A DNA stretch of 39,032 nt, from the NCBI GenBank assembly GCA_021775935.1, contig JAJFGY010000223.1, forward strand, positions 1-39,032. Reading direction: 5' to 3'. The translations under genes were made by a program, and so were the position numbers. Below are positions 33,041 to 34,697 of the stretch, piece by piece; position 1 is the first letter of the stretch; every line of letters begins with the position of its first letter. The stretch comes from Alphaproteobacteria bacterium (GTDB lineage Bacteria > Pseudomonadota > Alphaproteobacteria > Parvibaculales > Parvibaculaceae). The notes beneath the pieces were generated by a model. The model was not told the origin of the DNA. It searched no databases and saw only the letters and a program-made list of their open reading frames with translations.

Positions 33041-33718
33041 TCAGAGGTTTCGAGCACCACGGCTGACCGTGCGCTGAAGCATCGCGGCGATTTGGCTTTC
33101 GCTTCGCCGGAAGCTCGCGGCATCAGACGCGGTGACGTTGAACGTGACTGAAATGGGGTGACCGCCCCCTTGCGAGGCGACGCCGAGTTTGCCGTCTGCG
33201 CCGCGTGCCAATGGCAGGATTGCTTCGGCGCCTGCTTCGCCTGCCAGCCCCAGCCCGCCTGCCATGGGAAACAATGTGGGGTCAGAGAGCACGCCGCCTT
33301 TTGCAAATGCGTGGATGCGTCCGTTTTGCAACGCATTGCCTTTGGCATTTGGTGTGAAGAGCGCGCTAAAGAGATCGCCCAGAACGGAACCTGCCTCGCC
33401 AGTCGCGCCGGTGGCCCCGCCTGAAGCGCTTCCAAAAATATCCTGGGCGGCAAGTTTTGCGAGATCCACCGCAAGGGATTTCAAGATTTCCTGGAAGGAG
33501 GCACTGCCGACAATCAGATCATCAAATGCGCCGCTCAACACCCGGCCAAGTTCCTGGCCCGTCTTGGATGCCCGGTCGCCTTCTCGCGCAATGCCAACAA
33601 AGGCATTTTTGGCCTCTTTTCCAAGACGGTCACTGGCCGAGGCGACCGCATCGAACTCCGCGCGCAGGCCGCGCAGGTCTGAGGTCAGTCCGCTCACATC
33701 AAATGTATCAAACTCCAT
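33041..33718 (-). CDS. GTA short tail tape measure protein g11
   Basis: This is a 225-residue tape measure, short like that of the R. capsulatus GTA, whose tail is short. The N-terminal part (FDTFDVSGLTSDLRGLRAEFDAVASASDRLGKEAKNAF) is helical, a hydrophobic Gly/Ala-rich stretch follows, and the C-terminus (GGGHPISVTFNVTASDAASFRRSESQIAAMLQRTVSRG) is the conserved GTA block. I use ATG 33718 because AGAGG lies five bases upstream; it overlaps the end of the g10.1 frame. A reading from 33742 would start inside g10.1 with no better ribosome site. Confidence 0.9.
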   Translation of the reverse strand: MEFDTFDVSGLTSDLRGLRAEFDAVASASDRLGKEAKNAFVGIAREGDRASKTGQELGRVLSGAFDDLIVGSASFQEILKSLAVDLAKLAAQDIFGSASGGATGATGEAGSVLGDLFSALFTPNAKGNALQNGRIHAFAKGGVLSDPTLFPMAGGLGLAGEAGAEAILPLARGADGKLGVASQGGGHPISVTFNVTASDAASFRRSESQIAAMLQRTVSRGARNL

Positions 33719-33914
33719 CTTGTCCTCTGAAAACTGGGTCATCTGGAAAACGGGTCATCAGCCTGGCAAAACCGTCCTGGTCCAGGACCACCGCTTGAAC
33801 GTCAACCAAGGGCGCTGTCACTGCGTCAATTTCGGGCAGCGTTGCTGTCCAGAACTGCTGCGGTGACCAACGCAGCACACCACAGGCAAAACTCAGGAGC
33901 GGCCGCCAGGGAAA
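33708..33914 (-). CDS. GTA tail assembly chaperone g10.1, -1 frame extension of g10
   Basis: This is a 68-residue frame in the -1 register relative to g10. It reads FPWRPLLSFACGVLRWSPQQ and then FWTATLPEIDAVTAPLVD, matching the rcc01693/PF09550 pattern (PFPW...GVLRLxPxxFW). No ATG, GTG or TTG occurs in this frame between its upstream stop (TGA) and the PFPW motif. The first such codon is a GTG 12 codons into the conserved domain. The frame therefore probably has no independent start and is reached by -1 slippage at CCCTTTC, giving a 191-residue g10-g10.1 fusion. A CTG start just after PFPW or the internal GTG remain alternatives. It ends inside g11. Confidence 0.8.
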   Translation of the reverse strand, partial: FPWRPLLSFACGVLRWSPQQFWTATLPEIDAVTAPLVDVQAVVLDQDGFARLMTRFPDDPVFRGQDGV

Positions 33915-34282
33915 GGGGGCAGCTCTTTTGTGCCTCCGCTCGGGTCGCCCTGGGCGTCGGCTGGACTGTGATCAGATCCACCAAAGGTCACCCGTAAGAG
34001 GTCTGCGAGCGTTCGGATGAGCCCCGCCATGCCGCCCTCAAAGCTCAGTGTTTCAAGGTCGAGGGCAGCGGTGTCATGGCCGCCGCCCTTCAGCCCAGCC
34101 TCGAGCAGGTTAAGTGCATCAGCGCTGCTGAGCTGTCCGCACGAAAAGCGATCCGCCAAAGCCAGAATGTCATCGCCACCATAGGCCGCCTCAAGCTCCG
34201 CCAGCGCTCCGAGCGTTAAGCAGAGCGTGTAGGTCTCGCCACCTGCGTGCAGGCTCACCTCACCACGATGTCGGTTCACCAT
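33893..34282 (-). CDS. GTA tail assembly chaperone g10 (rcc01692-like)
   Basis: This is a 129-residue protein of the GTA family/PF11836 type. Its N-terminal beta part is VNRHRGEVSLHAGGETYTLCLTLGALAELEAAYG, followed by helices LNLLEAGLKGGG and MAGLIRTLADLLRVTFGG and a hydrophilic tail ending LPPFPGGRS. It starts one base after the g9 stop (ATG 34282). A longer upstream reading overlaps g9 and is unlikely. In lambda-like phages the equivalent gpG is made with a frameshifted gpGT; here the slippery heptamer lies at codons 122-124, with g10.1 in the -1 frame. Confidence 0.92.
   Translation of the reverse strand: MVNRHRGEVSLHAGGETYTLCLTLGALAELEAAYGGDDILALADRFSCGQLSSADALNLLEAGLKGGGHDTAALDLETLSFEGGMAGLIRTLADLLRVTFGGSDHSPADAQGDPSGGTKELPPFPGGRS
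33911..33917 (-). promoter_or_regulatory. Predicted programmed -1 frameshift site (C CCT TTC)
   Basis: On the minus strand the heptamer CCCTTTC fits X XXY YYZ in the g10 reading frame (CCT-TTC, preceded by C), and slippage gives CCC-TTT and enters g10.1. A Shine-Dalgarno-like GGAGG lies 15 bases upstream (33933-33937). A 7-bp stem TGCTGCG/CGCAGCA lies about 33 bases downstream (33856-33877). The heptamer and frames are seen; the frameshift itself is inference. Confidence 0.65.
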
Positions 34283-34283
34283 G

Positions 34284-34697
34284 TCAGGCACCTGTGAACA
34301 GGAGCTGGCCCGCTGATTCCAGCGCCAGATCAAAGCGCAGCTCCTCCTCGTGGCTGCCGGAATATTCAAGGGAGGTAATTTGAAAGGCCCCCTGCACGGT
34401 CCCGAAGTCAGGCACGATGACCTGCCAATCCCGGATTGTGCCATCAAAGAAATACCCGCGGATAAGGGCATCTGATGTTTCGTCCTTAAAGATACCGCTG
34501 CCGCTCAGGCTGGCTGTTTTGACACCGGCCCCGGCCAGCAATTCACGCCAGGCACCAGCGGACTCTGCATTGGTTACATCGACGGTGCGGGTGTTAAACG
34601 AAATCGCGCGGGCCCGAAGCCCGGCAATGGTCGCGAAGGTGCCCAGACCATCACTGTCGATCTTCAGCAAAAGGTCTTTGCCGCGTTGAGCTGTCAT
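34284..34697 (-). CDS. GTA major tail protein g9 (TP901-1 type)
   Basis: This 137-residue tail tube protein has MTAQRGKDLLLKIDSDGLGTFATIAGLRARAISFNTRTVDVTNAESAGAWRELLAGAG, which is the phage major tail protein TP901-1 signature, and ends with LRFDLALESAGQLLFTGA. It forms the stacked hexameric rings of the tail. It starts 18 bases after the g8 stop with GGAGGAG upstream, and is followed by g10 after one base. Confidence 0.95.
   Translation of the reverse strand: MTAQRGKDLLLKIDSDGLGTFATIAGLRARAISFNTRTVDVTNAESAGAWRELLAGAGVKTASLSGSGIFKDETSDALIRGYFFDGTIRDWQVIVPDFGTVQGAFQITSLEYSGSHEEELRFDLALESAGQLLFTGA

Follow-up and report, generated by a model that had tools for sequence, protein, structure and literature searches.

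The gene transfer agent cluster and its tail chaperone genes

A gene transfer agent (GTA) is a phage-like DNA courier built into a bacterium. A cluster of the RcGTA type fills the last 12 kb of the window (the whole 39,032-nucleotide stretch of DNA that was analysed) on the minus strand, as identified from its genes by profile searches. The genes are arranged in the order prohead protease, HK97-like capsid, head-tail connectors, tail tube, g10, g10.1, tape measure, distal tail protein, hub, NlpC peptidase, and megatron. The structural set was recovered in order, with megatron and hub included (NF048004 megatron, 1827 bits; TIGR02217, TIGR02218, and TIGR02219; HK97 capsid and protease). The g10/g10.1 pair is placed between the tail tube and tape measure genes, and both members belong to Pfam families of the TAC type. 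The second of them is named g10.5 in PMC11409702. The features of the region are as follows.

34284..34697, minus strand: g9, tail tube protein (PF06199, E 4.8e-44)
33893..34282, minus strand: g10, tail chaperone 1, 129 aa, zero frame (PF11836, E 2.3e-24)
33972..33974, minus strand: TGA closing the -1 frame upstream, 19 codons before FPW (reading of frames)
33708..33971, minus strand: g10.1 (g10.5, tail chaperone 2), the -1 frame between stops (PF09550, E 2.8e-12)
33933..33937, minus strand: Shine-Dalgarno-like GGAGG, 15 nt upstream of the heptamer (sequence; group enrichment)
33911..33917, minus strand: slippery heptamer C CCT TTC, the third base of g10 codon 122 and then codons 123-124 (sequence, conservation)
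33893..33895, minus strand: TGA stop of g10, 19 nt past the first base of the FPW codons (reading of frames)
33856..33877, minus strand: 7-bp stem-loop, 33 nt downstream of the heptamer (judged not functional)
33041..33742, minus strand: g11, tape measure protein (NF058675 RcGTA tape measure, E 8.4e-47, under the curated cut-off)

The matches of g10 to PF11836 and of g10.1 to PF09550 are both above the cut-off, and g10.1 also matches TIGR02216 under the curated cut-off (E 8.7e-9). The g10 protein is conserved in 14 aligned relatives. Its structure model resembles predicted phage tail assembly chaperones in BFVD (best named match E 2.4e-3, TM 0.59), and a PDB fold search matched it to no solved structure. 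The g10.1 model gave no significant match in a fold search of a viral library; it has a confident first helix, residues 3-12, which is opened by FPW.

A slippery heptamer in the overlap

The earlier note on this DNA had proposed that g10 and g10.1 are joined by a programmed -1 ribosomal frameshift. The conserved part of g10.1 begins at the F of FPW (33914) and runs for 68 residues from there to the downstream stop of the -1 frame at 33710-33708. This frame overlaps g10 in the -1 register and has zero ATG, GTG, or TTG codons between its upstream stop and FPW. The heptamer lies in the g10 frame, exactly 3 nt ahead of the FPW codons. Our reading of the window agrees with the note on the 68-residue frame that lacks a start before FPW, on the position and register of C CCT TTC (33917..33911), and on GGAGG, which begins 20 nt before the heptamer and leaves a gap of 15 nt. 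The predicted product lengths were likewise reproduced, namely a 129-residue g10 and a putative fusion of 191 residues, which would consist of 124 g10 residues and 67 g10.1 residues with the junction ELPPF followed by PWRPLL. The genome encodes a tRNA-Pro(GGG), whose anticodon would match all three bases of CCC once the slip has occurred; tRNA-Phe was not found in the incomplete assembly of the window (297 contigs). C CCT TTC is overlapped in the window by another heptamer, T TTC CCT. The latter was rejected as the working site because many relatives that keep CCCTTT have lost it, namely those with R, S, C, G, or L after PF.

Conservation among close relatives

All seven genomes of the genus (L001, L027, L028, L029, L130, L132, and L220) carry CCCTTTC at -3 and lack a start ahead of FPW, and the same arrangement is found in the sister genera g3 and g4 (loci L025 and L026). 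The retention of the heptamer in frame where g10.1 starts are missing, which the note had suggested looking for, thus holds in the genus, in two sister genera, and in many lineages beyond them. Relatives with a clear start before FPW do exist, among them sister genus g5 and the Rhodobacteraceae, but in these g10 stops upstream of FPW and the heptamer is gone. In sister genera g2 and g5, which lack the heptamer, the ATG or GTG stands 3-8 codons before FPW, at the point where g10 ends. Since start and heptamer change together with the end of g10, such relatives indicate a switch of decoding mode and do not refute the frameshift.

The stop of the -1 frame lies only 2-3 codons before FPW in L026, L135, L143, L159, and L250 (e.g., CGC CCC; ACC AGC CCC), and the codons in between are neither starts nor near-cognate starts. 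More generally, several relatives that keep the heptamer have only 2-5 codons before FPW, mostly without near-cognate starts. FPW is therefore unreachable by initiation in several relatives, because only 2-5 non-start codons follow the preceding stop of the -1 frame.

Distribution across Alphaproteobacteria

Loci with both genes were gathered from whole genomes, GTDB contigs, and viral contigs (303 loci; 174 representatives at 85% g10 identity). Many Hyphomicrobiales records again have CCCTTT at -3, as do most positives of the order of G040. In the latter order, CCCTTT stays constant whichever residue comes next after PF (PFRW, PFSW, PFPW, PFCW, PFGW, PFLW). Other lineages carry substitute heptamers in the same overlap, such as AAACCCT, GGGAAAG/C/A, and AAAAAAT/G; AAACCCT is often directly followed by the g10 stop. 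An evenly drawn, class-wide sample contained 46 PF09550-positive genomes. A heptamer but no ATG/GTG start is present in 23 of them (two with TTG), 15 have ATG/GTG without a heptamer, three have both, four have neither, and one is without g10.

A representative in the -1 register was called start-less if it had no start within 20 codons of FPW. In-frame X XXY YYZ occurs in the overlap of 64/74 start-less loci vs 14/65 loci with ATG/GTG (Fisher 4e-15), which leaves 10/74 start-less loci without a canonical heptamer; these locus counts are dereplicated yet partly dependent on phylogeny. Sorted by phase, 70 heptamers are in the shifty phase vs 3 and 7 in the others. The overlap contains 14.5 heptamers per kb vs 0.65 per kb in the first 90 g10 codons (about 22-fold). 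TTT frequently encodes the Phe of FPW in other settings as well (56/86), so it was discarded as a rare codon signal and the PF codon pair was chosen for comparison. This pair is CCCTTT in 40/44 overlap loci vs 13/33 outside the overlap (p 3e-6).

In a Rhodobacteraceae-like family, whose g9 is close to RcGTA Rcc01691 (E 2.5e-71), ATG or GTG stands at or near the g10 stop in 29/29 newly fetched loci. The model RcGTA comes from the Rhodobacteraceae, and their use of ATG/GTG at this stop is probably why the frameshift has been overlooked. Mapping onto a g9+g10 tree requires 18 changes of the start/slip label and 11 of the identity of the slippery sequence; the starred branches alone force about ten slip changes. 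A phylogeny-controlled comparison of start loss with heptamer gain gave 4.5 in favour and 1.4 against (median p 0.375), with few supported pairs (12) and hence low power. We lean towards the view that the tail chaperone frameshift is old and common in alphaproteobacterial GTAs and has been kept by selection after domestication, with exchanges of its slippery sequence (CCCTTT, AAACCC, GGGAAA, AAAAAA) and with some ten or more replacements of the whole mode by a coupled start.

Three groups of loci have unusual overlaps. In L304, L306, and L307, an overlapping ATGA or GTGA comes immediately after CCCTTTA or CCCTTTG, which places a slippery site beside a coupled start; these loci are possible intermediates of the mode switch. 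In L153, L194, and L207, G GAC CCT TGA replaces A AAC CCT TGA at the g10 stop, giving a degenerate heptamer and an overlapping TTG, perhaps a shift toward TTG initiation. Finally, L140, L142, L113, and L299 have a start-less g10.1 in the -1 register with no canonical heptamer (e.g., CCCTTCC at the FPW position) and represent either weaker shift sites or decayed GTAs.

Candidate stimulatory elements

A Shine-Dalgarno-like element was called when the best site in -16..-5 reached -6 kcal/mol, and 200 codon shuffles were used as control. Such an element lies 7-16 nt upstream in 32/40 CCCTTT loci vs a shuffle mean of 13.5 and a maximum of 22, an enrichment that bears out the suggestion of a candidate stimulator of this type. 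In the CCCTTT, AAACCC, and GGGAAA groups, complementarity to the anti-Shine-Dalgarno sequence of 16S rRNA is highest 7-13 nt ahead of the heptamer, so that the position of the element tracks the heptamer in three heptamer classes. In the genus of the window it lies a few bases farther from the heptamer.

The downstream 7-bp stem, which had been put forward as a second stimulator, is present as sequence and was rejected in this role. It is probably a product of chance, because it folds no better than shuffles (z +0.72; 149/200 shuffles fold as well) and its arms pair poorly in relatives (2-4/7 positions in 11 relatives). A weak group signal for structure just past the heptamer was obtained, with z below -2 in 9/40 vs 3/79.

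Proposed mechanism and alternative explanations

Taken together, the sequence evidence makes it very likely that a conserved -1 programmed ribosomal frameshift operates in this domesticated GTA and yields a 129-residue g10 and a 191-residue fusion. Most ribosomes would read g10 to its TGA and release chaperone 1 with its 129 residues. A minority would pause with CCU UUC in the P and A sites, probably aided by anti-Shine-Dalgarno pairing with the upstream GGAGG. After a slip of one base backward, both tRNAs would re-pair with CCC UUU, and reading on in the -1 frame would give the 191-residue fusion, i.e., g10 residues 1-124 followed by PWRPLL and the remainder of g10.1. The g10-g10.1 fusion may then act as a tape-measure/tail-tube chaperone, analogous to lambda gpG/gpGT. 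The occurrence of slippage, its efficiency, and the chaperone role of the fusion are what we infer from these features.

Termination-reinitiation would instead produce a shorter, separate g10.1 from a codon overlapping the g10 stop, six codons past the F of FPW, or from an internal GTG. The g10 TGA is indeed overlapped by CTG in the window (CTGA), by TTG in most members of the genus (TTGA), and by ATG in several lineages (TGATG), and an ATG/GTG at the g10 stop does serve as the start in the Rhodobacteraceae and in sister genus g5. However, reinitiation at codon 6 would cut a conserved part of the protein, because FPW opens the modelled helix 3-12; FPW and half of that helix would stay untranslated. 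It also gives no account of CCCTTT or of the Shine-Dalgarno-like element. In 11 of the 40 CCCTTT loci, no ATG/GTG/TTG appears after the F before codon 12 to 23 or beyond; in one CCCTTT locus the first start is at codon 31, and in another it is lacking altogether. Another order has TAG as the g10 stop in CTAGG, with no start there. Reinitiation as the source of g10.1 is thus improbable, but a shorter reinitiated product may arise where CTG, TTG, or ATG overlaps the g10 stop, as in the genus of the window and some other lineages.

The remaining explanations carry far less weight. Initiation at a non-standard start codon upstream of FPW, driven by GGAGG, would suit the good Shine-Dalgarno-like sequence ahead of the heptamer, but we regard it as scarcely credible given the several heptamer-keeping relatives with just 2-5 codons before FPW, mostly with no near-cognate start, and given that the Shine-Dalgarno position follows the heptamer in three heptamer classes. 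The fragmented and incomplete assembly of the window, in 297 contigs, could suggest a sequencing error, a pseudogene, or a chance overlap. These are already refuted by the conserved arrangement and have next to no probability: the same layout is present in 7/7 genomes of the genus, several of which are assembled into no more than two contigs, and recurs in named genomes and viral-contig assemblies of independent origin, and the phase and density statistics of the heptamers speak against error and chance. Transcriptional slippage would join both frames too, but CCCTTT has no long homopolymer run, and its substitutes are two-triplet heptamers with a Shine-Dalgarno-like element, a ribosomal signature; slippage at transcription rather than on the ribosome is accordingly most improbable.

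Comparison with known systems

The -1 frameshift of E. coli dnaX uses A AAA AAG with an internal Shine-Dalgarno-like element upstream and a hairpin downstream. The window resembles it in the element upstream of the heptamer and differs in having no supported hairpin. The heptamer G GGA AAG of some GTA lineages is presumably that of lambda.

Tail assembly chaperone frameshifts in lambda G/GT and other siphophages were reported by Xu, Hendrix and Duda 2004, as cited in PMC3556154 and PMC3711429. The GTA pair shares with lambda its position between tail tube and tape measure, the -1 register, the X XXY YYZ motif, and a short protein with a C-terminally extended fusion (predicted here). In contrast to a replicating phage, the window holds a domesticated GTA cluster with C CCU UUC and a Shine-Dalgarno-like element, and in many GTA relatives a start codon has taken the place of the shift. 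The putative GTA frameshift can be classed with the known lambda G/GT cases, and GTA lineages have repeatedly changed between predicted slippage and a start codon. For a tail assembly chaperone in an HK97-like phage cluster, 6-7% frameshifting has been measured (PMC3711429). That cluster has the same kind of gene pair and recoding and is described as phage-derived; the words "gene transfer" are absent from the paper.

The RcGTA tail chaperones g10 and g10.5 correspond to rcc01692 and rcc01693 (PMC11409702). Families and gene order are homologous to those of the window, whereas the sampled Rhodobacteraceae (R. capsulatus not among them) give g10.1 its own ATG/GTG at or beside the g10 stop, with no frameshift. 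Tail assembly chaperone frameshifts have been predicted in R. capsulatus phages (PMC8601537), i.e., a frameshift of the same kind in a GTA-bearing host, although in phages and not in the GTA. A search of open-access literature yielded no description of a tail chaperone frameshift in GTAs, in agreement with what the earlier note had supposed. Tail chaperone frameshifting is classical in phages; the GTA case predicted here appears to be new, and the apparent switching of mode within GTAs is the less expected part.

Implications and further observations

These results suggest that a particle domesticated by its host maintains recoding, which is commonly regarded as a viral economy. The GTA tail is very short (tape measure of about 230 residues), and length control by excess chaperone may matter less. 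Related GTA pairs with and without the fusion make the purpose of the chaperone fusion testable, and if the frameshift is indeed an old, selected trait, GTAs would be a natural experiment on why phages keep it. The annotation of g10.1 is also corrected, since gene callers can place its start wrongly, as exemplified by MW091529, where g10.1 is begun at an internal ATG after FPW. Only two GTA-like contigs are filed as phages in the phage collection, L342 (MW091529.1) and L343 (MW462191.1); both have a GTA-like head-tail cluster and the heptamer AAACCCT. In another genome, a second, partial PF09550 match (G027:C116:2893-2994) lies about 1 kb after the intact one.
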